Part shown: one piece after another, positions 1,018-61,400 of the stretch
Position numbering within the stretch: the first letter of the stretch is position 1
How the letters are laid out: every line of letters starts with the position of its first letter
Assembly: GCA_033980235.1 (NCBI GenBank)
Contig: CM067062.1
Location: forward strand, 13,039,991-13,103,990
Source of the DNA: Diadema setosum
Lineage: Eukaryota; Echinodermata; Echinoidea; Diadematoida; Diadematidae
Reading direction: 5' to 3'
DNA length: 64,000 bases
Notes under the pieces: model-generated
What the model saw: only the letters and a program-made list of their open reading frames with translations
Databases searched by the model: none
Told to the model about the DNA's origin: nothing
Translations under genes and position numbers: made by a program

Positions 1018-2283
1018 GTATAAAACACATGACCCTCCTTAAATCGAGGGATATGAAATTAGTGTCAAAAGAATATGCCAGTTCAGACGACGCATGCCAA
1101 TAATTATAATATAATAATTATGAAGGGGTAAGTGATTGTATTAGATGTTTATCATAGGACAATGGCAGCTTATGTGGTAAGGGAATTTACAATCGATTCT
1201 TTTGATAAAACGGGGCCCGGGAGTTTCAATTTGATCACTGCGAATATTATGTAAGAGGGATGCTTGACCCTGTTTGTGCTTAATTTGTGTGCCAATTGCG
1301 AGAGAAAATCCTATAGTGTTGTACACACGCTGTCCATAGTCCATGGTCCAGAAAGTGTTAACCCTGTGTTTCCAATGAATGCTGATTGGCACGAAAACCA
1401 CAAAGCATTTTACACATGCACAGTCCAAAGTCCCTATCCTGACACACTGAAAGTGTTAAAAAAAGGGGGCGCTTCATACTGTTAAAGTTGTGGATTCAGC
1501 CGTAGGGTTACTGTCTAAACGATTGTATTCCTCGGTGATCGTTCCAATACATGACCCGTCTCGAACTCTGCGTACATCAAAAGTTTATGACCTAATTTGA
1601 GATAAAATTACATATTACTGCCTGTCGTGAACTGATGCGAGGTACAGACTTGTTTTCTGTATACCACTCATGCAAAACGAGAAGTTTGACGAGAGAATTT
1701 GTGTCAATGAGCCAATCAATGGTGGCGATCGTTGAATTAAACGTTCCGACCATTGTTAGGTAATGTTAGTTACAAAAAGGCAAAAAAACCCCACCAACAT
1801 CATCTTATGATGGTACCCTGGTCAGGAGTGCCTCAGTTTGCTACAAAGTTATACTGTTGTTTTGAAACAACATTCTGCCCTTGTTTTTACAGTCTCAAAT
1901 TCTCAAGAGATGCAATGACTAAAATGAAGGTCAAATCTAATGAAAGCTCATATCCTTTGATATACGTATATGTGGTACAATGTAGATCTGACAATATTCA
2001 TCACGAAACAACATTGATATGATTGTGTGCTATGCGATGATCGGAAAATGTTATAACTACTAGAATATGAAATAATGAGAGCATGGATATCGTGTTCTCC
2101 GTAAGATATTGACAATAAGAGTAGGCCCATTATTTTGTATAGTGTTCTATAATGACATTAAATTACAGCGTGTATTAATATCCGTGTCAAAGTCCCACAA
2201 GCTATCAACTACAAACACAATATTGTGGTGTCACTGATGATGATAATAATAATGATTAATATGTGCATGTATTGATTTTCCAG
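1018..2283 (+). other. Intron 3 of the TSSK-like gene
   Basis: This is bounded by GTATAA and TTTTCCAG. I see no gene, tandem repeat or inverted-repeat element in it. The short open frames lack splice context and coding character. Confidence 0.75.
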
Positions 2284-2450: not shown

Positions 2451-2726
2451 GTAAGTCTTTCTTTGAGCACGGGTTCATTCTTCTCCTCTTCTTTTTGGAT
2501 TCAGGGATTCTCATCCTCCGAATTTCCAAACTAGCAGCATTATTCCCCCCCCCCCCACACACACACACACCCCGCACACACACATTATAATGTATCATGA
2601 CAAATTTCATAATATACAAACTATGGGGTAAGTAGTGTTGTGAGACATCAGCAATTCATAGCAAGTTCATATTGAATGTTCAAATATTGTTTTCAAGAAG
2701 ACGAGCGAAACACCACAATGTCATAA

Positions 2727-3872
2727 TAGACCGGGGGCCCAGAGCATTTATTCAGCTGAAAAGGGTCACACTTTTTGATGGTCTCATCATCTAAGGATGT
2801 GGCCAAGGGTCAATAAAATGAGTTGCTGGCAAGTCACATCCTGTACCGTAAGCCTAGGGACCACAAAAAGGGACCCCGAAAAATGGATTTATTCAGCCGA
2901 AGGGGGTCACGGACAAAAGTTGGTGGATATTGTTCCTTTGGGTGTACTTATCATGAAAACAGCAATGCCAGCTATTTTATCCTGTACGGGGCCCCAGACA
3001 GTAGCCCCAAAGGGCCCCAGAAATATGGTGTTATTCAGCTGAAAAGGGTCAGGGCTAATTTCTTTTGCAATGGAAGTAGTTCCCATCAGAGATATCCAAA
3101 ACACCAATGCCAGCTATTTTATCCTGTACGGGGCCCTAGACAGTAGCCCCAAAGGGCCCCACCCCCATAGGCCTACGTATAAACACACAAAAACATTGAT
3201 TTTATTCAATTAAAAAGAGTCAGGGCTAATTTCTTTTGCAATGGAAGGAGTACCAATCAGAGATATCCAAAACACCAAAGCCAGCTATTTTATCCTGCAC
3301 GGGGCCACAGACAGTAGCCCCAAAGTGCCCCACCCTAAGCCCTACGTACAAACACACACACACACACATTGACTTTATTCAGCTGATAAGAGTAACGGCT
3401 AATTTCATTTGCAATGGAAGTAGTACCCATCAGAGACATACAAAACACCAAAGCTAGTTACGGGGCCCTAGACAGTAGCCCCACAGTGCCCCCCCCCCCC
3501 CCCAACACACATACTCACACTAGTTTCATTCACCTGAAAAAGGGTCACGGCTAATTTCTTTTGCAATGGAATTAGTACCCATCAGAGAAATCCAAAATAC
3601 CAAAGCCAGTTATTTTATCCTGCGTGGGGCCCCAGACAGTAGCCCCAGACAGTAGCCCCAAATTGCCCCCTTACCCCCTCCCCCTCCCCCCCCCCCCCCC
3701 CAACACACACATTGATTTTATACAGCTGAAAAGGGTCACGGCTACTTTCTTTTGCAATCGGAAGTATACTCATCAGAGATATCCAAAGCACTAAAGCCAG
3801 TTATTTTATCCTGTACGGGGCCCCAGACAGTAGCCTCAAAGTGCCCCCTACACACACACACACACACACACA

Positions 3873-3941
<69 letters not shown>

Positions 3942-4075
3942 TTGTTTCATTCAGCCGAAAAGGGTCACGGCTAATTTCTTTTGCAATGGAAGTAGTATCC
4001 ATCGGATATCAAAATACCAAAGTCAGATATCTTATCCTGCACAGGGTCCCGTACAGTAGCTCCAAAGTGTTTTGC
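2727..4075 (+). repeat. Left arm: about eight tandem units
   Basis: Units begin near 2745, 2890, 3030, 3205, 3375, 3525, 3720 and 3945, each with a TTCAGCTGA-type start. Most end in AGTAGCCCCAAAGTGCCCC followed by a C run and then a CA run. The terminal unit is diverged (CAAGGGTCAATAAAATG and GGGACCACAAAAAGGGACC) and is shared only with the far end of the right arm. Long open frames through the array are by-products of the repeat, not genes. Confidence 0.85.
3850..3941. repeat. (CA)n(TA)n microsatellite
   Basis: This is a long CA run with one CCCACA interruption that passes into TA. It lies at the end of a satellite unit after the C-rich stretch. Confidence 0.95.
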
Positions 4076-4790
4076 TTTATTCTCTTTATTGTTTGCATCT
4101 CTTCTTCTTAAATATGCGCTCCTTCGTCTTCATTTTCGCGACATCGACAACGCGTCCTCCTCATCATCATCAGTTTTGCTGTTCTGGCAAACATTTTCCA
4201 GCGTATCGGCTACGTTCGATTTTAGAGCGGCGAGAGCGGAAGACGTGCATAATTGAGTCTGGGAAAGCGTAGGAACAGCGTAGCTAAAGCGGCCAACAGC
4301 GTTATCGAAGCAGGAATGAAGCGTCGTAGGAACAGGCCTTGATTTTATACGAGAGTAGAGAACTTAGTGAGAGCGTCGTTAAAGGGGGAAGGTCGTGCTT
4401 TGATCAAGAAAGCGGCGCAGCAGCGGGACAATGTCGTCGGTGTCTAGTTTAGACTATATTTCCCGTTCTTGTGCCGCTGTTACTACGGTCAGAAAAACCT
4501 GGAATTGTTACGCTCATCCCGCGGTATTTACACTGTCACTGCTCTCTCCCCGTTTGAGCTACGATTCAAAATAGGTCAATCTTGATGGGGAGATGAGGAA
4601 GAAATTTTGAACCAGTTCAAAATTTCTTCCCGATCTGTAAAATTGCCAGATCCAACCCCATCACCCAAACGCTGCTGCTACGATGCTCCCGGTCGCCGTA
4701 CACTTTTGCTGCTCTCTCCCGATCTGACAGATTGAATAGATCGGGATGCAGATCTTGATAGTGGAATTACATGTGGGGACACTTTAGGAA
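4076..4790. other. Unique cassette within duplication copy 1, rich in hairpins
   Basis: This non-satellite segment lies inside the element and is repeated at about 5571-6300. It contains a near-perfect palindrome at 4597-4630 (arms GGAAGAAATTTTGAA) and a CCGATCT...AGATCGG hairpin near 4718-4744. No protein frame convinces: the open frames stop after 60-70 codons and the two copies conserve no obvious start. Confidence 0.55.
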
Positions 4791-5376
4791 CACTCCGTGG
4801 GGCCCCGTACAGCTATATAACTGGTTTCGGTGTTTTTGATACCTCCTTGAGTACTACTTCCATTGCAAAAGAAATTATAGCAGTGATTCTTTTACACAGA
4901 CATTGACTTTATTCAGCTGATAAGAGTAACGGCTAATTCCATTTGCAATGGAAGTAGTACCCATCAGAGACATACAAAACACCAAATCCAGTTATTTTGT
5001 CCTGTACGGGGCCCCAGACAGTAACCCCAAAGTGCCCCCCCCCCCCCAACACACATACCCACACAATAGTTTCATTCAGCTGAAAAAGGGTCACGGCTAA
5101 TTTCTTTTGCAATGGAATTAGTACCCATCAGAGAAATCAAAAAAACCAAAGCCAGTTATTTTATCCTGCGTGGGGCCCCAGACAGTAGCCCCAAATTGTC
5201 CCCTTACCCCCTCCCCCTCCCCCCCCCCCCCAACACACACATTGATTTTATACAGCTGAAAAGGGTCACGGCTACTTTCTTTGCAATCGGAAGTAGTACT
5301 CATCAGAATATCCAAAGCACTAAAGCCAGTTATGTTATCCTGTACGGGGCCCCAGACAGTAGCCCCAAAGTGCCCC

Positions 5377-5378
<2 letters not shown>

Positions 5379-5447
<69 letters not shown>
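5379..5447. repeat. (CA)n microsatellite in duplication copy 2
   Basis: This is a pure CA run of about 33 dinucleotides. It occupies the same place in the duplicated unit as the one at 3850, but without the interruption. Confidence 0.95.
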
Positions 5448-5452
<5 letters not shown>

Positions 5453-5570
5453 TGGTTTCATTCAGCCGAAAAGAGTCACGGCTAATTTCTTTTGCAATGG
5501 AAGTAGTATCCATCGGATATCAAAATACCAAAGTCAGATAATCCTGCACGGGGTCCCGTACAGTAGCTCC

Positions 5571-6300
5571 AAACTGTTTTGCTTTATTCTCTTTATTGTG
5601 TGCATCTCTTCTTCTAATAAATATGCGCTCCTTCGTCTTCATTTTCGCGACAACGACAACGCGCCCTCCTCATCATCATCAGTTTTGCTGTTCTGGCAAA
5701 CATTTTCCAGCGTATCGGCTACGTTCGATTTTAGAGCGGCGAGAGCGGAAGACGTGCATAATTGAGTCTGGGAAAGCGTAGGAACAGCGTAGCTAAAGCG
5801 GCCAACAGCGTTATCGAAGCAGGAATGAAGCGTCGTAGGAACAGGCCTTGATTTTATACGAGAGTAGAGAACTTAGTGAGAGCGTCGTTAAAGGGGGAAG
5901 GTCGTGCTTTGATCAAGAAAGCGGTGCAGCAGCGGGACAATGTCGTCGGTGTCTAGTTTAGACTATATTTCCCGTTCTTGTGCCGCTGTTACTACGGTCA
6001 GAAAAACCTGGAATTGTTACGCTCATCCCGCGGTATTTACACTGTCACTGCTCTCTCCCCGTTTGAGCTACGATTCAAAATAGGTCAATCTTGATGGGGA
6101 GATGAGGAAGAAATTTTGAACCAGTTCAAAATTTCTTCCCGATCTGTAAAATTGCCAGATCCAACCTCATCACCCAAACGCTGCTGCTACGATGCTCCCG
6201 GTCCCCGTACACTTTTGCCGCTCTCTCCCGATCTGACAGATTGAATAGATCGGATACAGATCTTGATAGTGGAATTACATGTGGGGACACTTTAGGAACA
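5571..6300. other. Unique cassette within duplication copy 2
   Basis: This is the second copy of the hairpin-rich cassette, with its 15-bp-arm palindrome at 6106-6139. It matches copy 1 with few differences (for example CGGTGCAGC for CGGCGCAGC). Confidence 0.6.
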
Positions 6301-6400
6301 CTCCGTGGGGCCCCGTACAGCTATATAACTGGTTTCGGTGTTTTTGATACCTCCTTGAGTACTACTTTCATTGCAAAAGAAATTATAGCAATGATTCTTT

Positions 6401-8306
6401 TCACTTAGAATAAAATAATACGGGAGCACTTTCCAGCTACTGGCTGGGGGCCCCTTAACTGGATGGGTTTGTGTTTTACGTATCTCAGCTGTTAATTCCA
6501 CTGCCAAGGAAAATAGGCATACATGACTGTTTTCACCTAAAAACAATTAATTCATATGGGGTGGGAATACCTTGGGGCTATACCTGTCAAGGGCCCTGCA
6601 TCCGGGCCAATATCGCACCTCTTTTAATCGAATTCTTTAATGTTGAATTAAATTTTGCAAAAATTTCGCCTAGATGACATGGTAGTTCAATGTCATATTA
6701 ATCTCTTCATTCAAATTTATTTTGAAACATTCACATTACCTCTAACCTTATTCTAAATAACACTTTTTCAACTGAAATCCATATAAGACAAGTACCATTC
6801 CACTATCCGTTCATTCATAAATTCATAATGATATAGTCACGTGATTACATGCCGCGCTCGTTCATTCAAATTGATTTCTGGCCATCTAATTTTCACATGT
6901 TCTGCAGTCAATTAAACAGATATGTTCATGCTTGGCCTCTTTCCTTATTTTCTTTCGTCGTAGTTATTGTTTTGTAAGCATCATAGCATTTCATGTTTTC
7001 GTATTCGTTTAAGAGACTTTGACACCATTTTTTAACGTGCTTTTTGAATCCAAAGAAGTAAGAAGCCTCAAATTATCTGGCCGTTACGAGCGCTTTATTA
7101 CGAGCGGTCGGCCAGTTACAAGAAGTCAAGGTTATGATCCTCAAATGTTTTTGTTTTTTTATAATTCTTTCTATGTCTTCTAGAGATATACGTCTGTATA
7201 TATTGTGCTGTCATGACTATAAAAAATGAAGTTAAGCTGCATTACTGGTACACGTATAGGCCTATAATGACATGTATATGAAAGAGAAGGAGCGTTACCA
7301 GTCTGGTTACAGAACAACCAAATCCAGTTATACTAGATAAGAAATATGACACTTTTACTGCTTTATAACAGTAATTTATAGATGAAACGAAAACACACAT
7401 AGAAAGACATGTTAAAAAGATCTGAAACAAAGAAATAGCATGATTTGAATTTGAATGAACACGTTTGGAATTTGACTGTCTTTCGCGAAATTTAATGACT
7501 GAAATGCACTTTTCGGCAAGTCAAGGCGAATTTGAATGAACGTAGGGTACCAGCCAATTTGAATACCCATTTTACGAATTCGAACATTCTATCAAAATTA
7601 ATGAACCAACAAAAGTGCGAAATTGGCTGGGAAAACCTAACTGGCTTTGATGTTTTGGGTATCTATGATGTAAACTAAGGCCTACTTCGATTGTAAAAGA
7701 AAAACAACTATGACTCTTTTCAGCTAAATGATGTCATAATAATTTAATGTGGGGGAGGGGCACTTTATGGCTACTGTAACCTGGGCCCAGTACAAGATGA
7801 AATGACTGGTTTTCGTATGGTCATCTTGGTTGTGCACTATACAGAAGTATGCTTCCTTTGCAAATTTGATTTTATTTTTATTTGATTTATTTCTGCTTAA
7901 TTCCGTTACATCAGATATGATTATATACATGTCATTATGATAAATACAATGTGATAATGATATTAAAGTTTACACGTTCAGTTGCCTTTGCCGGAGTAAT
8001 GACCGAATATGCACTATGAAAATAATAATGTGTGAATACAAAGTATCCTATACATATTGTTATCTGATATGAAATGAAATATATCGTGCTTATTTTATGT
8101 ACGCAGTAATGGTAAGGCACATCGTACACATACATATACATGCTCATATAATATACATGATGTGCCTATCCTATACATACATATATATTCATATTCATAA
8201 TATGGACAGATAAATAAATCGATATATGTATGCACACATACATGCATCATGTACCACGTACATTTTCATATACATTTGATTATAATACAATAAAGGAATT
8301 AGAATG
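6401..8306. other. Interior of the composite element, no gene
   Basis: The segment is AT-rich. Diverged inverted fragments of the satellite unit are visible at about 6410-6600 (GCTACTGGCTGGGGGCCCC) and about 7630-7830 (CTACTGTAACCTGGGCCC). Between them I see no transposase, RNA gene or other recognisable feature. Confidence 0.6.
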
Positions 8307-9077
8307 TTATCCTGGGGAATACTGCTTAAGGAGGTGAAGTTTTACAGCCTTCTTAAATGAATACATAGTGGTCATGTTTTTAATTTCGATGGGAAGGGAA
8401 TTCCAAGTGTCAGGGCCGGAGTGTCTGATAGAATGATGCGCGAGTGCGGTTTTGGGGTTAAATAAATGTAAATTTGTGGATTGTCTAGTTGGATAAGAGT
8501 GAATCTCTGAATTTGACCGAAATATTCTGTTGAATATTGGAGGCAAGAGGTTTGACTTGAGACAAAACATAAATACAGCTTTTTGGAGAAAATTTATGTC
8601 ATTTATCTTAAGGGATTTAAGCTGGAAAAACAATGGGTCGATGTGATCTCGAGAGCGTGCTCGACTGCACACTCGAATTGCTTTTTTCTGTAGAAGAAGT
8701 ATACGGTCTGTGTTACATGTGTGGGTTGCCCAGATAATGTTGCAATACGATATATTTAATGGTAAAATTAAGGCATTATATAGGGTAAACAATACACGAG
8801 TTGATAAAAAATACTGAAGCTTAGTTAGCAGGCCAACGTTTCGGGATATAGGCAAAATGATGTGTTTTACATGATCATCCCATTTTAGGTTTTCATTTAT
8901 ATACACACCGAGAAATTTATTAGATATTTTCCTTTCAAGAGATATACCATCAATATACAATTCATATTCTGGGAGATCAGCTTTATTACATTTAAAATGA
9001 ATGAAATTAGTTTTGCTTAAATTAAGTGCCAGTATATTACTTTTAAACCATGTAGATTTCTTGAGTGTTTTGCTACT
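8307..9077 (-). mobile_element. 5'-truncated non-LTR retrotransposon (LINE) reverse-transcriptase fragment
   Basis: An open - strand frame of about 250 codons can be read from about 9077 down to the stop at 8307, with no start codon. It has the hallmarks of the C-terminal part of a LINE reverse transcriptase: W-x-x-x-N-x-L-x-L-N-x-x-K-T, then KFLGVYI...LKWDDHVKHI, a thumb-like helical region with Q-K-K-A-I-R, and the YPTRQ...WNSLP end typical of Jockey/CR1/RTE-like elements. Finger and palm motifs such as the F-A-D-D box are missing because the copy is cut at the 5' side, where satellite unit sequence resumes (about 9072-9080). It is the only transposition-related coding sequence I see in the composite element and is inactive. 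Confidence 0.85.
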
Positions 9078-9456
9078 GTAACCTATGGGACCCCGTATAC
9101 AGGAGAAGATGACTTGCTTTAGTGTTTGTGATATCTCTGTTCAGTAGGCCCTGATATTAACGTTACAAAAGAATTTGTAAGACCATTTTCAGCTGATTCA
9201 CAGTACATGTATAATGGATGGGACACTGTGGAGCTACTGTCTAGGGCTCTGTGCAGGATGAAATAACTAGCCTTGGTGTGTTGAATATCTCTGATAGGTA
9301 CTTCTTCCAGTGTAAAAGAAATTACCCGTGTTTGGGGCTATACTGTGCGGGGCCCCATACAGGATAAAATAACTGGCTTTGGTATTTTGGATATCTCTGA
9401 TGGGTACTACTTCCATTGCAAAAGAAATTAGCCGTGACCCTTTTCAGCTGAATGAA

Positions 9457-9547
<91 letters not shown>

Positions 9548-10666
9548 GGGGGGGGGTGCACTTCGGGGCTACTGTCTGGGACCCCGTACAGGATAAAATA
9601 ACTTGCTTTAGTGTTTTGGATATCTCTGATGAGTGTGCCTACTACCAATTGCAAAAGAAAGTAGAAATGACCCTTTTCAGCTGAACAAAATCAATGTGTG
9701 TGTGGGGGGGGGGAGGGAGCAATTTGGGGCTACTGACTGGAGCCCCGTGCAGGATAAAATAGCTGGCTTTGGTATTTTGGATATCTCTGATGGGTACTAC
9801 TTCCATTGCAAAAGAAATTAGCCGTGACTCTTTTCAGCTGAATGAAACTAGTGTGGGTGTGTGTGTCGGGGGGGGGGGGGGGGGGAGCTCCTTTGGGGCT
9901 ACTGTCCGGGGCCCCGTACTGGATAACATAGCTGACTTTGGTGTTTTTGATATCTCTGATGGGTACTCCTTCCATTGCAAATGAAATTAGCCGTGACTCT
10001 TCTCAGCTGCACGAATGAAATCAATGTTTGTGTGTGTTTGTACGTATGGCCTATGGGGGGTGGGGCGCTTTGGGGCTACTGTCTGGGGCCCCGTACAGGA
10101 TAAAATAGCTGGTATTGGTGTTTTGAATATCTCTGATGGGAACTACTTCAATTGCAAAAGAAATCAGCCGTGACTCTTTTCAACTGAATAAAATCAATGT
10201 TTGTGAGTGTTTGTACGTAGGCCTATGGGGGTGGGGCCCTTTGGGGCTACTGTCTAGGGCCCCGTACAGGATAAAATAGCTGGCATTGGTGTTTTGGATA
10301 TCTCTGATGGGAACTACTTCCATTGCAAAAGAAATTAGCCCTGACCCTTTTCAGCTGAATAACACCATATTTCTGGGGCCCTTTGGGGCTACTGTCTGGG
10401 GCCCCGTACAGGATAAAATAGCTGTCATTGCTGTTTTCATGATAAGTACACCCAAAGGAACAATATCCACCAACTTTTGTCCGTGACCCCCTTCGGCTGA
10501 ATAAATCCATTTTTCGGGGTCCCTTTTTGTGGTCCCTAGGCTTACGGTACAGGATGTGACTTGCCAGCAATGCATTTTATTGACCCTTGGACACATCCCT
10601 ATATGATGAGACCATTAAAAAGTGTGACCCTTTTCAGCTGAATAAATCTTCTGGGCCCCCGGTCTA
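9075..10666 (-). repeat. Right arm: reverse-complement tandem units
   Basis: The same unit runs on the opposite strand, recognisable by GGGGCTACTGTCTGGGGCC, ATAACTGGCTTTGG and TTCCATTGCAAAAGAAATTA. The order from the outer end mirrors the left arm. The innermost units (9075-9330) are the most degenerate and abut the LINE fragment. Poly-G and GT runs at 9461-9560, 9698-9716 and 9868-9887 replace the C and CA runs of the left arm. Confidence 0.85.
9461..9557. repeat. (GT)n plus poly-G
   Basis: This is a GT run of about 40 dinucleotides followed by a G run. It is the right-arm counterpart of the C/CA hinge in the left arm. Confidence 0.95.
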
Positions 10667-10945
10667 TAACTTTCCCAGAGTTTTGATCCGAATTTGTCTG
10701 AATTTCCTCCGTTGTGTTTGTAAGATTGTACTCTGTCTTTTCAGACTCACTTTGACTTGTCCGGAATTCCCCTTTAAACAGCTATCCTAGTAACTGTACA
10801 TGGTGAACGAATTTATGCAAATATGCAAATGAGTTCAGTAAAAGAAGTAACATGGACGACTAACATTGTAGGTATATACCTAAGGCGAGAGTAACCTCTT
10901 TTCTGAGGTGACGTCTTATCATCTCCTTTTTCTGTTGCCATTCAG
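10667..10945 (+). other. Remainder of intron 4
   Basis: This is unique sequence between the composite element and the acceptor of the exon at 10946. Nothing else is recognised. Confidence 0.6.
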
Positions 10946-26877: not shown

Positions 26878-27240
26878 GAAGGTACTGTTTACCATTGGTA
26901 ACAGTGATTTTAAAAAATGTTGGAGTTATCACATTTGATGCATATGTGTAGGTCAGTTGTATGCAGTATCACAAAACATCTTACCATATAAAAAATTTGC
27001 AATAAAGCCTAAAATATAAGGAGATATCACTATTTTTCTCACTGAACCGTAACTGTAGACGGTTTAGTCTAGAAACAATTTTATTATAACTATTGTTCTC
27101 ATTTTGTATTAACAATACTTTATACTGATTAACTTTTTTGCACTGGTTGTTTCTATCCCTAACTCACATTTTAGAAAGTTACATTTTGAAGCACTCGCTT
27201 GGTTTTTGGTTCATCTGCAAATGATAAACAATGTCTTTAA
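26878..27240. mobile_element. MITE, copy 1 of a dispersed family
   Basis: The ends are AGGTACTGTTTACCATTGG and TGATAAACAATGTCTTTAA. The interior (ATAAGGAGATATCACTATTT, ATTTTATTATAACTATTG) matches the reverse complement of 29876-30248 at roughly 80% by eye. Only the right end keeps TTAA. Confidence 0.78.
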
Positions 27241-29875
27241 CCCCCAGATTCTCACATTTCTATGATCTGTTGTTTATTTTTCTCGTTCAGATATTTACCT
27301 GTACATGTTTGTTTTTTTCAAAGGGAAGATTGAAAAATGTTCTTTCACTGGAGTCCTTTGTTTTTCATTGTTTTGGTGGCAGAATGTTGAGAAGCCTCGT
27401 AATTGCTACGTTTATGATTCTTAATATTCTCAATAAATTTTGGAAGATCAAAGTTCCTTTTTTTTCTCTCAAATTGGCAATTTAATTTAAAATTTCTTCA
27501 CAGTTTAGTGCAGATTCAGTGACTGACCAGTTTCATCTCATCTTTCGTGAATATACCATACACAGTGAAAATAGTATGCAAATTTGATCGTGACAAGATG
27601 ATTCCTGCAGCTAAATTTTGCTTGATGGAGTAATGTTTAAATCATCCGACATGCTGTAGATTTTTTTTTTTCTGATATTTCTACATGAATGATTTCAGAA
27701 AATATTGACACACAGATGAATAGCAGTGGAGAGGAACTTGAAAAGGTTATGGTTGAGGTGGTGGTTTTATCATCTTGAGGAGTTATCAGGTGTTATTGTT
27801 TACATAATTTTATGTCATTTTCCATTCACACTGAATGTTTCTCAGTTGTTGTTGTTATTTTGATTTTTAAGGCACGTGTCATTCAATTGTGAATCATTAA
27901 AAAAAAAAACAAATTCAAATCAACAAGGGAGAAAAAAATGTAGGGGACTTTCAGGCTCCTGGCTGATTTTTTTTTTCCACCCACAGCTTCTCCAATCCAG
28001 TTCACTAGTTTAGTGTTATTGACAAACACAAACAACCAGTTTGTCTACTTCCAGCCACTGCTGCGTTCCTCTGAAAAGTGCAGTCAGGGTATTCAAAGAG
28101 TCTACCGTAGGTTTACAACAATAAAATAGGGTTGAAGTTTCAGATGTGGATTTGGGTGAAGTTTGGGAAACAACAGACAAAGCCCATTGCACACACGATG
28201 AATGAAACAAATTGGACCGAGCACAAGTAGACCAACAATACACACAGACGGGAAGAGACCATCCGCTTTGCTGCGATCTGTCCCTTCCCACGCTGTGTGG
28301 CCGAAAGTTTACGTCGATGTACAACTGTATGCGCGTCGATGTACAACTGTATGCGCAGGAGTATGATTGTTTTAGTCTTCACTCAAGACTGGATCACGTA
28401 TCTGCACGCTGAACACACAGGTACTCACGCAGGTGACATTTCGGCTCGGAGAGGGCAGCCAGCTTGCTGTCTGGAAGCCCTGGCTCTTTCCTGGAGAGGC
28501 TGTCACGCCATGTCAGGGTATTTGTCAGCAGAGCGGCGATAAATCAGAGCCAAGTTCATGGGAAGCCCTGAGTCACCCTCGGTGAAACTTTTCTCTTCTC
28601 CAGAGCTCTGTGTGTGTGTTTGCTTGTAACTCTAACAGAGCAAAGTTTGCTGTGTTGTTGTTCCCCAACTCGTTAGCATGGGAATTGCATTTGGCTACAG
28701 CATCGTATCTCTGTGAGCACTTGTGTGCACGTTTGTTGGAAAGGTCGGTCCAAAAATAAGAGATTGATAGACATCTTGAAATCAGAGAGTAGTTCTGAAC
28801 AACTTATCACACTTGTCACAAGTGAAGGGCGAGTTAGAAGTTCTTTCCAATCTGATTGCTGTATTTATAGTCTTGTGTGGACGCACCAGGAAAAAAAAAG
28901 GAAAAAAGGAATTATGCTATATGATGAGGACACAATAGAAGTTCCTTAGCCAAGTTTCATTTGTCGTTGAGCACACATTAATAATCATGATAATAATGTC
29001 ATTTCATGCTGCGTATATTAATATTTTCTGTTCAGAGTTTCTGACTATATTGCAAAATGTTTCCCTGAAGGAATTCAGCTTTTCTTTCATAAAAAAAAAA
29101 GAGTCACTAGTCAAAAGTGGATTTGGTACCACAAGGTATCCATGGAGGTATGTTTGATTCCTTCAGACACTTAACAATATAAAGAAAGTAATTCTGTTGT
29201 TGTTGTTTGTTTGTTTATTTATTTTTAAGAGAGAACAATAACAACAAGAAGTTATTCTTCGCACCAAGTAATGTCTTCCCCACTCAGAGGTTAAATGGGA
29301 CCACATTACAGGAAATGACAAGAAAGACATGAAGCACATTTTGCTTTGAGTAGTATTATGATCATGTGAAAGGGAAAATCACACCACATTTAGCACAAAA
29401 GGTTTTGAGCAAGCTCCAGTGGTACTGTTTCATATACTACTTACACTTCCCTACTCTGTAAGAAGCACCTAGGACTTTGCGTAGTTGACAACTCAATACA
29501 AAATGGAGTCAGTTTCTGTTAGAATAGATGTTTGTCACTGCAGTTGAATTGGTGTTTGAATTACCTCATAAAGCTACTAGTGACTCCCATTACTAGGAAA
29601 GTCTAAAGCAGCAAACTGCCAAGTGTCAATAACTGTCTGCAAAGTAAATTGGCTCTTTTTTTGTTGTAGGTGGTCTAGTGATTTCTTTGTCGCTTTCTCT
29701 TCCTTTCACGTCTGCGTGGCGTCTAATCAGACTGTACACAAAGTCAGAGACCTTTCAGATGAAGCTCGGCAGCCACCGAAGCATTGGATGCACATGGAAG
29801 AGAATTCTTTCTTTTTTCCCCCTCTAAAGAAGATTAATGGGATCATTGGCTGTAGAGTCATCTTGGGTTCATAAG
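27241..29875. other. Intergenic, no gene recognised
   Basis: This is AT-rich with homopolymer runs. The stretch 28200-28600 is somewhat GC-richer and carries a 22-bp tandem duplication, but no frame there has recognisable protein or clean splice sites. Confidence 0.5.
28313..28356. repeat. Perfect 2 x 22-bp tandem duplication
   Basis: GTCGATGTACAACTGTATGC (plus GC) occurs twice head to tail with no difference. Confidence 0.9.
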
Positions 29876-30248
29876 TTAAAGGTATTATTTACCATTTGCA
29901 GATAGAGCAAAACCCATCTTTAGTGCTTCAAAGTAGTTCTAAAATGTTAGTTATGGTTATAGAAACAACCAATGTAAATATTTTAATCAGTATAATCAGT
30001 GTTAAGTATTGTTAGATATATATGCAAAATGTGAACAATAGTTATAATAAAATTGTTTCTGGAATAAACAGTCTGCAGGTATGGTTTATTGAGAAAAATA
30101 GTGATATCTCCTTATATTTCAGGTTCTATAGCAAAATTTTTATATGGTAGGATGTTTTGTGATACAACTGACCTGCATGTATGCAATCAAATGTGATAAC
30201 TCAACCATTTTTTAAATCGCTGCTCCCAATGGTAAACAATGCCTTTAA
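29876..30248. mobile_element. MITE, copy 2 (inverted) with TTAA at both ends
   Basis: TTAA|AGGTATTATTTACCATTTG mirrors AATGGTAAACAATGCCT|TTAA. It is the same family as 26878-27240 in the opposite orientation. Confidence 0.8.
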
Positions 30249-57450: not shown

Positions 57451-57658
57451 ATCACAGATGACACGCCTAGGAGGGCAGGCCCCAGGGGTGAAATGAATGC
57501 CTGAGACATCATGCTCCACGCCCCACATCTCTTGGCCCGCATCTTTGACTACCAGACTAGACTGGAGGCAGCGCAGGAGGAAGACCCTCCATGGGCCACG
57601 TGAGAGGCGGCAGCGGGACGCAGAGCCTCTGCTGCCCTCGTGGACATTGTGCGCCAGC
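57451..57658 (+). other. Probable 5' UTR or upstream in-frame extension of the PKDCC-like exon
   Basis: The stretch becomes GC-rich abruptly. An acceptor-like ATATCACAG at 57451-57459 could mark a 5' exon boundary. The 54 in-frame codons from 57497 are Arg/Pro-rich and probably untranslated. Confidence 0.4.
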
Positions 57659-58438
57659 ATGAGGGCGCTGTTGAGGATCCACACATACACAGTGGCCATC
57701 TCCTTTTCCTGCTTCGTGTCGCTGTCGCTCCTCTTCTACACCTTCCGCAGCGGGGCCGGCGGGGAGGACCCATCCGATGTCAACGACGTCGGCTCATTCT
57801 TCTCCAACTACAAGAAGGTCAAGCACTTGGAGAATGTTGTGAAGACCCTCCAGAGCAAGCTTTCAGAGGCCCAGGCCTACGAGAACGAACTCCTCACAAA
57901 GATCGACGAGCTCCAGGAGCAGGTGAACTCGGAGCATGCCAGCACCATCCAGGTGCGAGGGCTGGAGGCCCAGAGTGGGTGGGCTGGGGTCGGAGAGACG
58001 GCGGGCGCTGGTGCGGCAGCTGCAAGTGGCCACCGAGCTACTCAGATCTACAGCTGTAGACACACGGACTCGATCAAGGTGGGCAAGACCATCGGTCAGG
58101 GCCACACCAAGGTTGTGCAGGAAGGGACGCTCCTGGGACGGAAGGTGGCCGTCAAGAGCACCAGCATGCAGGTCAAGAACGTCAAGGACTGCCTCCAGCA
58201 GGGCATCTACAAGAAGAAAGAGGACTGTCTCATTCTGGCCATGTACAAGGTCCTCAAGGAGGCGATGATATTACGGCAGGTGCGCCACCCAAACGTCATC
58301 AAGCTGCTCGGGCTGTGCGCCCGTAGTGAGAACGGCAGTCCCAACATTCGGGAGAGAGGAGTCACCCTGGTGGTGGAGCTTGGCTCCCCGGTCCACCTCC
58401 ATGAACTGGTGGAGATGCCCTGGCAGACAAGAGTCAAG
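57659..58438 (+). CDS. PKDCC: PKDCC/VLK-like secretory-pathway protein kinase, first coding exon
   Basis: From the ATG at 57659, 260 codons run to a CAAG|GTAAGT donor in phase 0. Residues about 11-29 are a hydrophobic signal anchor after MRALLRIH, so the product is probably a type II Golgi/secretory protein. Residues about 51-98 form a coiled-coil stem. The kinase N-lobe follows: GQGHTKVV (glycine loop, about 146-153), VAVK (Lys166), an alpha-C-like helix with KE (about 200-201), VRHPNVIKLLGLC and VVELGSPVHL. TK-x-V, VAVK and ELGSPV match the PKDCC (vertebrate lonesome kinase) group, which phosphorylates extracellular proteins on Tyr; POMK-type kinases are the nearest alternative. The frame is open upstream to an ATG at 57497, but that extension is Arg-rich and would bury the anchor. 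Residues about 105-128 are odd (see findings). Catalytic exons lie beyond the window. Confidence 0.8.
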
Positions 58439-61400
58439 GTAAGTGGTCTTCCATGTCTTGAATCACCATGGAAAGCCCTAATTATGTTTTATTTAAATTA
58501 TTGGATTTAACCCATCAATCTCTGGAAGACATGTCTCTGGTCTAGTGCTGTATCTGATAATCATACTTTCTAGTGTTCATTGTCAGTGATTCACGGGGAA
58601 TAGAAGTGTCATTTGTGTAATTAAGGAAAAAAGTTCTAGCATGCTACCCTTCCACAAACTACTGGTAAGAATTTTTAATTCAGCTTTCCACTTTAATAGT
58701 TGATGGTGATAGTTCGAAAATGATAATAGTCATTATTCTACCCTGTTTATAAAGCATACATGTACATGTACATGTATGCATGATTTACTTTGAATAGCTA
58801 CCCGTGAAGTTAAGTACAAAGTTTTGTTTATTAAGTTTGCACTAGTGTTAAGTGTAAAAAGTGTTTAAAACTGTACCTTTAAGTCTTGTAAAGAATGGTA
58901 ATCTCGTGAATTATTTTTCATACGACCCCCTTGAAGGGGGCTGGCAGCATTATGATTTCGGGTTGTTTATCCCTTCCCAGGATCATTTTTTTTTTCTTTT
59001 TCTTTTTTTGTTTAACAAAGTGGTGGTGGGTGGGGCATATTAGCCTGCCTTCCAGTATAGGACCACCTGAGAGCATTCTCAAATTTAATCTGAAACATTA
59101 ACACTCCTTTTGGATGCCTGCATGCACTCAACACCTTTAATGACCTCGGGAGTTGGTTATATTAACAAATTAGATTGTTTCAGGAGGAAATTGGGTCAGG
59201 CAATGAAGCGGAAGTGGAAATGGAGAGTCCAACTACTGTGTGTTAAAGGGAAAACAAAGGGAAAAACGGAGCAAATAAAGTTTACCATGTTGGGAGAGCC
59301 ACGAGGAAATGTCACACTATTTGTGTGCATCAAGTAACCAGCAATGACTTTCCCCCAGTAAAGAATCTACCTTTAAAGTGCAGGATTCCTGAGCAGTTTT
59401 TACCCATTAGCCTCTTCATCTACTCAAAATGTCCTCATGGTGACATTCATAAACATAAAAACAAGCCAAATTCCATCCAAAATAATGGTAGAAGAAATTC
59501 CAGGGTTTCACCTCTTACACCATTCTGATAGTTGTTCATCTTCTCTATTGCATCTTCCCTCCACTTCTTGATGCTCAAAGTGCTGCATAAAAGAAGTAAA
59601 CGAAAATGTTAACTTCATCGCCAATAATGGCAAGAGCCAATTCAGCCCAGGGCATTGTCGCCCGTTGCCATGACAGTGTAATGCAATCATTATGAGTCGC
59701 AGTTATTGCATCTTTAACCCTATGACTCTTGCCTCTCTCAGCTGTTCCGGCACATCCGTTTTGCTAGTTATCTTTTTAGGTCGTCACAGAGGTCCTGAGT
59801 AATAAATTGAAATAGTTTCATCCGTGTATGAATTCATATTGTGTTGCACCAGTCGCTGTGTGGGACTTAGATGTGGCTGCCCTTCAGTGTATGAGTCAAA
59901 CATATGATCCTAGTCAAAATTTCATTGGAGACATTGCCCCCAATATAGATAGAACAGCTTTGCATGTTACAACTTAGTCTTCAGGTACTAAAAGAGTCTA
60001 ACAGCACATTGGACCCAAATTGTTTAGTTAATAGACCCCATTATTTTGTCGTAAGTAGCCTGTAAAAGTAGGCAGGGGTTGGTATTAGTTTAGATTAAAT
60101 CTGCTAATGGCTTTGAGAGAAGGTTACCTTTTTTCTTATTCCAATGTTGTCTGTCTCATGAATGAGAACAGACCCATTTACTTATAAATGTCAGTGTGTC
60201 ACACACCCACTCATAGATACCCCGCTCCCTGTTGTCTAAATAACGGGCTTGCCATAAAAACCTGCACAGCCGCCAGTAATATGCTCCAGCTAACGTTCAG
60301 AAATGTGACAAAGCATTTGCTCCGGCTGGTGGAGTGATTTTTTTCCCCTTCATTTTTATTTTATTTATCATTTTTAAAAATCTTGAAGCCACTCACTCAG
60401 CTGCCTGTCGTGCAGAGTCAACTTTGGACCACGTCCAAGTTTGACGGTGCTGATCAAAACAGGTTGCAGTCGTGACCAACTGTTCTGCTCTCCAGGCAGC
60501 GAATCTTTCCTGCCTTTCTCCTATCCCAATAACAGCACACCTTGTCATATAAAGAACCATAAATCATATGGCTGCACAATGTCTAATTCTAGAGGATGAC
60601 ACGTTGCGTCTTGTGTTTTCAAGCCAAATGTAAAAATTATGTTTCATGTTTTCCCAACATCAAGGGAGCTTAAGATGCTATCAGCACAAGAGTTGAAACA
60701 TCTTACAACTTTACAATGTACATTGCTAGAAGGAGCTTTACTGTGGTGTGAAGTGTACATTCTTGTTATTTTTGTTTTTGCTTTTGAAAGTATTCACTAA
60801 AAAATAAGAAATTTAAAAAAAAAATGTGGAATTTGGGCAACCTTGCAGTACCAGAACTACAGAAGGGAAAGCAGTAAACTAAAGGCATAATCATCTTGCT
60901 AGGATAAATTTATCTCTGCTCCAGATGATGATGACTATATAGAAAAAGAATGCTTTACAATAGGAAATAAATTGCATTCCAAGTTGTTGCTGTAAAAATA
61001 AACTGTATCATGGATTAGAACGAAGCCAGCAGAGCAACAGGAATATACAATATATGCACATCACATTCTCCACTCTAGTATGATGCTTGAATAGTATATT
61101 AGTCCTCTCCCCTTAATATGTGCAACATAAACTTTAAATGCGTGTGAATGACAACCGATTGTTTGAGGGTGTTGATTGTGTAAGCCGTTGCCAGGACTCC
61201 AGTAAATATAGTATACCGTGATTGTCAGAAGCACTAGGTAACCAGGTCTATGCTCTCTGTTTACATTTCTATGGACACCAAAGTCATCATTCATTTCTAG
61301 AGGAAATAAATTGGTTGGAAAGATTAAGCAGAGAGTAAGTACTGAAATAACAGGATAGAGATTATGGATGACAGAGGTACAATTTTGTATATGTGCCAGG

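Follow-up and report, generated by a model that had tools for sequence, protein, structure and literature searches.

The 64,000-nt stretch of the Diadema setosum genome analysed here, called the window below (contig CM067062.1, positions 13,039,991 to 13,103,990, forward strand), contains a protein-kinase gene with an intron that is mostly occupied by a 7940-bp repeat-rich element at 2727-10666. We interpret this element, with a probability of about 0.94, as a member of a family of non-autonomous cut-and-paste DNA transposons with foldback architecture in D. setosum. The copies of the family form two groups, A and B, and the window copy belongs to group A. The features of the locus are the following (TSD, target-site duplication; TIR, terminal inverted repeat; LINE, long interspersed nuclear element):

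2451..10945, plus strand: 8495-nt phase-0 intron of the protein-kinase gene, splice sites read by eye
2724..2726, no strand: left TSD, TAA, from the 3-bp TSDs of the family
2727..10666, no strand: complete group A foldback element, window copy, 7940 bp, from its ends, arms, genomic copies of the end and TSD
2727..2769, plus strand: left terminus, about 40 bp common to groups A and B, putative transposase-recognised end, from the end consensus
2727..4078, plus strand: left arm (TIR), tandem units forward, from arm alignment and unit scan
3360..4893, plus strand: first copy of a tandemly duplicated segment (four units, core, one reverse unit)
4079..4775, plus strand: first copy of a core without recognised coding, whole or in part in 16 of 17 other group A copies
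4894..6401, plus strand: second copy of the duplicated segment, with a 121-nt junction also found at locus L133
6402..6600, minus strand: diverged inner units, family sequence
6601..7632, no strand: internal family segment
7633..7865, minus strand: diverged inner units, family sequence
7866..9066, minus strand: 5'-truncated LINE fragment (C-terminal reverse transcriptase region), private to the window copy
9067..9330, minus strand: diverged inner units, family sequence
9315..10666, minus strand: right arm (TIR), tandem units reverse, from arm alignment and unit scan
10624..10666, minus strand: right terminus, inverted copy, from the end consensus
10667..10669, no strand: right TSD, TAA, from the 3-bp TSDs of the family

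Ends, arms and interior of the window copy

The mirror-image termini described in an earlier reading of the window made from its letters alone (the sequence-only reading) are exact inverted copies of the 17-nt sequence TAGACCGGGGGCCCAGA, located at 2727 on the plus strand and at 10666 on the minus strand. They are unique, as no third copy was found in the window even when up to 3 mismatches were allowed (0.03 expected by shuffling). The arms, 2727-4078 and 9315-10666, aligned as a single end-to-end inverted repeat with 93.8% identity (81 mismatches over 1305 aligned positions), and outside the element the longest inverted pair of the window spans 383 nt with 80% identity.

The unit scan confirmed that the arms are tandem arrays in opposite orientation. 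The element contains 25 segments, 11 forward and 14 reverse, scoring at least 60 against the 130-nt unit; 20 shuffles reached a maximum of 45 and the remaining window a maximum of 38, so that nothing there rises above shuffle level. Each unit consists of a conserved body of about 130 nt and a C-run/(AC)n spacer, whose varying length gives a pitch of 142 to about 233 nt. Within unit spacers, at 3850-3930, 5379-5447 and 9461-9544, (AC)n/(GT)n repeats form long arrays, and of 29 long C/G-run or CA/GT tracts found in the window, 13 fall inside the element. The order of the units is mirrored between the arms (the mirror pairing ranks 4th of 720, and 4th of 5040 with the outermost pair included), the spacer types follow one another in almost identical succession in both arms, and the arms probably arose by inverted duplication. 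One tract, 2823-3179, is nearly identical in the two arms, with 1 mismatch in 357 positions vs 80 in 948 (0 of 20000 permutations). Gene conversion at this locus after insertion was considered for it and rejected, because the low divergence of that segment is family-wide: arm divergence is 3.0% there vs 6.6% and 8.9% in 17 copies (L144 left out). A scan of Rfam gave 0 matches, as did a unit piece compared with viral contigs. An open reading frame (ORF) of the arm retrieved 1 candidate in the protein database, none being scored, and the 118 stretches (80 listed) matching the 14-mer in a prokaryotic collection were taken as chance matches.

The interior holds a 1.5-kb tandem duplication, as the sequence-only reading had it, with 98.1% identity between 3360-4893 and 4894-6401 (28 mismatches over 1491 aligned positions). 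The heterozygosity of D. setosum is given as 2.1% in the available part of PMC11066563, and an assembly artefact of heterozygosity was considered as the source of this duplication. It was rejected because the 121-nt junction recurs, at 99.2%, in one of the 25 other whole copies, L133, which lies on a different contig and has the TSD TTA, vs TAA at the window copy. The same junction at two loci with different TSDs indicates that the rearranged, duplicated form itself moved.

The LINE fragment noted in the same reading is represented by a minus-strand ORF at 8310-9065 with 92 homologues, many of them carrying PF00078; the ORF itself matched no Pfam family. Since it was found in 0 of the 25 other whole copies, the LINE is private to the window copy and most likely a later arrival. 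The segment 6601-7632 splits a unit cleanly, and in palindromy it did not exceed the highest-scoring of 300 shuffles (97 vs 98). It was considered as a second private nested insert and rejected, at least 680 nt of it being present in 16 of the 17 other group A copies. Of the parts behind the description of the element as composite, only the LINE is private to this copy.

A multicopy family with precise insertion

The genome-wide search with the terminus that the sequence-only reading had advised was made with the 14-nt end. It gave 189 exact matches (104 forward and 85 reverse), the reversed-pattern control giving 0 on each strand. Of the 100 listed places, 64 formed 32 convergent, inward-facing pairs separated by 4.5-24.5 kb, and no misoriented neighbour was present within 25 kb among these 100 of 189 places. 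All 32 pairs were examined, 26 as whole copies (window included) and 6 by their ends only. A perfect 3-bp direct repeat, of many sequences and AT-rich, lies exactly at the boundary in 31 of the 32. For the window copy alone, TAA at both ends has a chance probability of about 0.025; it is taken as a true TSD because the family shows 3-bp TSDs. The suggested TAA (or TA) target duplication is therefore real, although its sequence preference is not, the duplications being 3 bp of varying sequence.

When the element-free joined flanks of the 32 loci were compared with the examined loci, 2 empty sites were found, each with a single copy of the triplet: that of L127 in L146 (93%) and that of L137 in L138 (78.5%). 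Both belong to other family loci, and no empty site of the window copy itself was present among the examined loci. The paired ends, the 3-bp repeats and the empty sites together identify these elements as transposons that duplicate 3 bp of target and are bounded by TAGACC...GGTCTA. Repetitive inverted arms, dispersed copies with the same ends and TSDs, and precise empty sites are the features of a foldback transposon. By its architecture the family is a known kind of mobile element, and it is firmly established as real, multicopy and precisely inserted. The proposal of a foldback transposon inserted as one unit with help from elsewhere is upheld by the paired ends, the TSDs, the empty sites and the duplicated form at two loci, and mobilisation probably occurs in trans. 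No description of the family was found in literature search listings or in the articles cited here; repeat-sequence libraries were not searched, so the family may be filed there.

An all-against-all comparison of the 26 whole copies separated group A, made of the window copy and 17 others (L144 only partly), from group B with 8 copies, and revealed no DNA common to the two groups at E 1e-20. Their end consensuses nevertheless agree across about the first 40 bp. The basic form of group A is about 5.35 kb long (L128-L130 and L142, 5323-5389 bp). Additional DNA in other A copies was considered as cargo of one site and rejected, since the sites differ; the longest frame in these inserts, at L150:2274-5660, is an uninterrupted LINE frame of 1128 aa with PF00078 reverse transcriptase and endonuclease. 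Group B has a form of about 5.93 kb, with copies 95.4-99.6% identical to one another and without the A unit; the arms of L145, for example, are 1.9 kb long and 95.7% identical. Of the 189 exact ends, 42 are of the B type.

The 130-nt A unit opens with the inner half of the shared terminus. Its motif TTATTCAGCTGAAAAGGGTCAC, allowing up to 5 mismatches, is present in 10 + 10 copies in the window element and in 0 copies in the other 55.8 kb of the window. This points to the end as the origin of the unit, which was probably derived from the end and not the reverse. By analogy with Galileo, the repeated end motifs may be extra transposase-binding sites.

The sequence-only reading had also called the element a satellite, a term that proved overstated. 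Searching the genome with 32 nt of the unit gave 251 exact matches (control 0), of which 100 were listed. Of these, 88 have a listed exact terminus no more than 10 kb away, as do 0.39% of random positions; any 3 kb contains 4 of them at most; and they form no long independent unit arrays in the assembled DNA. In this listed part the unit is essentially confined to the elements. Satellite DNA existing mainly as independent arrays and only incidentally bounded by inverted copies would account for tandem units of satellite-like size and for the 12 listed matches more than 10 kb from a listed exact terminus. However, 9 of those 12 form three inward-facing clusters, each a few kb wide (C5 785000-792791, C7 13638559-13644607 and C7 36605843-36609279), as expected of copies with mutated ends. 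With the other 88 of the 100 listed matches (251 in all) sitting near the ends, this satellite explanation is very improbable. A local inverted duplication of a pre-existing intronic tandem array, without any transposon, would likewise give arms that are collinear arrays of one unit, and the TAA by itself was weak evidence before the genome search. Against it, many loci have this same combination of ends, arms and middle together with 3-bp TSDs, there are empty sites, and two loci carry the rearranged form. The arms belong to the family's own sequence and are not one array inverted at this locus, and we give this explanation practically no credence.

Several observations weigh against the interpretation as a mobile foldback family. 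The pairing analysis covers 100 of the 189 end places, and 36 of these 100 lack a partner within 25 kb, which indicates numerous broken copies or copies with changed ends; L136 has no TSD. Several single units (for example the units L4, L5 and R5) are closest to a non-mirror unit, so that exchange between units has blurred the history of the arms, and the outermost 20 nt by themselves resemble the unit only weakly (81 of 2000 shuffles equally good). Nor was a transposase or autonomous copy found: the only frames longer than 250 aa in the 26 whole copies are those of LINEs (window and L150), and of 70 matches in the genome to 96 aa of the coding relic in the group B arms, described below, those above 50% identity never lie in an open frame longer than 211 aa.

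The transposon interpretation suggests the following course of events. A transposase made elsewhere would recognise the terminus of about 40 bp (TAGACC...) that two or more foldback groups, unrelated in other respects, have in common, and would insert the element by a 3-bp staggered cut that duplicates three base pairs of the target. A subterminal segment with the inner half of the terminus may, in group A, have been amplified into 130-nt units with C-run/(AC)n spacers, and the array mirrored on either side of a middle without recognised genes. The lineage of the window copy would already have had the 1.5-kb internal duplication, common to it and L133, when it inserted at TAA in the kinase intron and later gained the truncated LINE.

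The kinase gene hosting the window copy was examined separately. The exon ends at 2450, with GT at 2451 and AG at 10945, both junctions being predicted in phase 0; the element fills 7940 of the 8495 nt of the intron and about 555 nt are non-element. The kinase domain upstream is PF00069, in agreement with the kinase intron proposed earlier, and one kinase exon compared with solved structures matched best SNF1-related and MARK kinases, with TSSK6 lower in the list. Elsewhere in the window, 57497-58510 is part of a PKDCC-like extracellular kinase gene, with an ORF 100% identical over 93% to a D. setosum protein. An inverted repeat pair of about 370 nt, 80% identical and 2.6 kb apart (26879-27241 and 29875-30245), is perhaps another TIR element.

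Source of the transposase

As the sequence-only reading had stated, the window element shows no visible transposase: 11 of its 30 ORFs of at least 70 aa were tested and none gave a transposase domain. The autonomous relative that it had recommended looking for was not found. Two TAGACC-ended elements of about 24 kb (L164 and L165 on contig C3; L166 on contig C5) contain tandem arrays with a step of about 81 nt; in a comparison using 10 kb from C5, about 9 kb matched C3 at 92-98.6%. They were considered as the autonomous parent and rejected, 17 ORFs tested giving no transposase domain. One 24-kb copy includes a SET-like exon (E 7e-4, below the cutoff), within DNA that the other copy lacks.

A 1255-aa frame read from L167 is matched over its residues ~977-1170 by each of the 8 group B copies (29-46% identity, E down to 2e-14), of which 6 have this coding relic in both arms. 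In L145 its two inverted copies occupy about 1216-1605 (minus strand) and 4323-4712 (plus strand) of the element (+150 for locus coordinates). The 1255-aa frame is part of a 1547-aa ORF on contig C4, which gave a weak match to DUF6589 (E 0.0032, 16.7 bits vs a cutoff of 27). The ORF belongs to a repeated element, found at L167/L168/L169 (C4:6620500-6633500) and L170 (contig C15; frame of 968 aa), the C4 and C15 copies being 99.2% identical over 3.45 kb. Imperfect inverted stretches are present on both sides, with a score of 127 vs at most 89 in 100 shuffles. The autonomous partner might thus encode a large DUF6589-like protein, the B arms being inverted relics of its 3' coding end and both groups deriving from it by deletion and foldback formation. 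The recurrent match of the B copies to the same residues and the repeated nature of the C4 element favour this scheme. However, a TAGACC end is absent from L167 at up to 3 mismatches and nothing better than 4 mismatches occurs across the 13 kb, the DUF6589 score is under the cutoff, no group A copy matches the frame, and B may simply have captured C4-like sequence. We regard it as possible but doubtful.

The termini and TSDs constrain the superfamily. P elements have TSDs of 7-8 bp, and with its 3-bp TSD the family fits neither the FB/Mutator (8-10 bp) nor the Galileo/P types. The TA duplication of Tc1/mariner was not observed, and only 9 of the 31 TSDs are TTA or TAA, the TWA target of PIF/Harbinger. 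CACTA/EnSpm elements end in CACTA/CACTG, and the termini here are TAGACC; Helitrons and Helentrons are without long TIRs and without a TSD of the 3-bp kind, both of which this family has. PHIS relatives make no TSD or TSDs of 1-4 bp according to the available part of PMC10045372, so other PHIS lines may fit by length. The same text gives 3-bp TSDs for Zator, in line with those at 31 of the 32 copies. No Zator transposase turned up, although no genome search aimed at PF07592 was made, and a Zator-type element is possible but unlikely. We also consider it unlikely, as a speculative synthesis, that the family is a foldback lineage outside Mutator, P, Tc1 and TWA-Harbinger, in which a 3-bp-TSD transposase, possibly DUF6589-like, moves unrelated bodies sharing a 40-bp end, and in which selection for extra end-binding sites in group A made the half-end the arm repeat.

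Comparison with known foldback elements

The family is a clean multicopy case, in an echinoderm, of foldback arm repeats that open with part of the element's own end. Groups A, with repeats, and B, with none, share only that end and offer a natural comparison for why foldback arms become repetitive, which also bears on how transposon ends may seed satellite-like repeats. A rearranged, repeat-rich form is shown able to move as one unit, and the element accounts for most of a kinase intron.

Among known systems, compared here through the available parts of the cited articles, Tetris of Drosophila virilis is the nearest analogue apart from its arrays. Its TIRs contain tandem repeats of about 220 bp with 37 bp in common with the outer TIR domain, and by description it is, like the D. 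setosum family, apparently non-autonomous, with long repeat-bearing TIRs, a variable middle and no transposase (PMC4079207). Tetris differs by its TSDs of 8-10 bp, vs 3 bp here, and by repeats that also form long satellite arrays; the same article cites the TU foldbacks of sea urchins (Lieberman et al. 1983) (PMC4079207). Galileo, of the P superfamily, has similarly long, internally repetitive TIRs and copies with changed repeat number, but its P-type transposase is known (PMC3688188, PMC3573991); its tandem repeats were shown to carry extra transposase-binding sites (PMC3688188). FB/Mutator-type foldbacks such as Tm1 resemble the family in their composite TIRs of variable length, nested insertions and TIR pairs about 93% identical, and differ in their 8-10 bp, mostly 9-bp, TSDs and in a Mutator-like transposase in some copies (PMC3169594). 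The oyster Cg_HINE non-autonomous Helentrons are likewise mobile with satellite-like tandem repeats, but their array is central and within a Helentron, another transposition class, and the available text mentions no foldback arms (PMC7492417).

Foldback architecture and a 3-bp TSD are both found in Tc4 of C. elegans, a fold-back element with the target CTNAG (PMC11071193). Only 9 of the 31 TSDs of the D. setosum family fit the TNA pattern, a difference from that element. Tc4 duplicates TNA. The TU foldbacks, which reportedly have 15-bp outer repeats and an 8-bp TSD, are like the present family in their sea-urchin host and foldback architecture and, compared by description only, differ from it in these repeat and TSD lengths.

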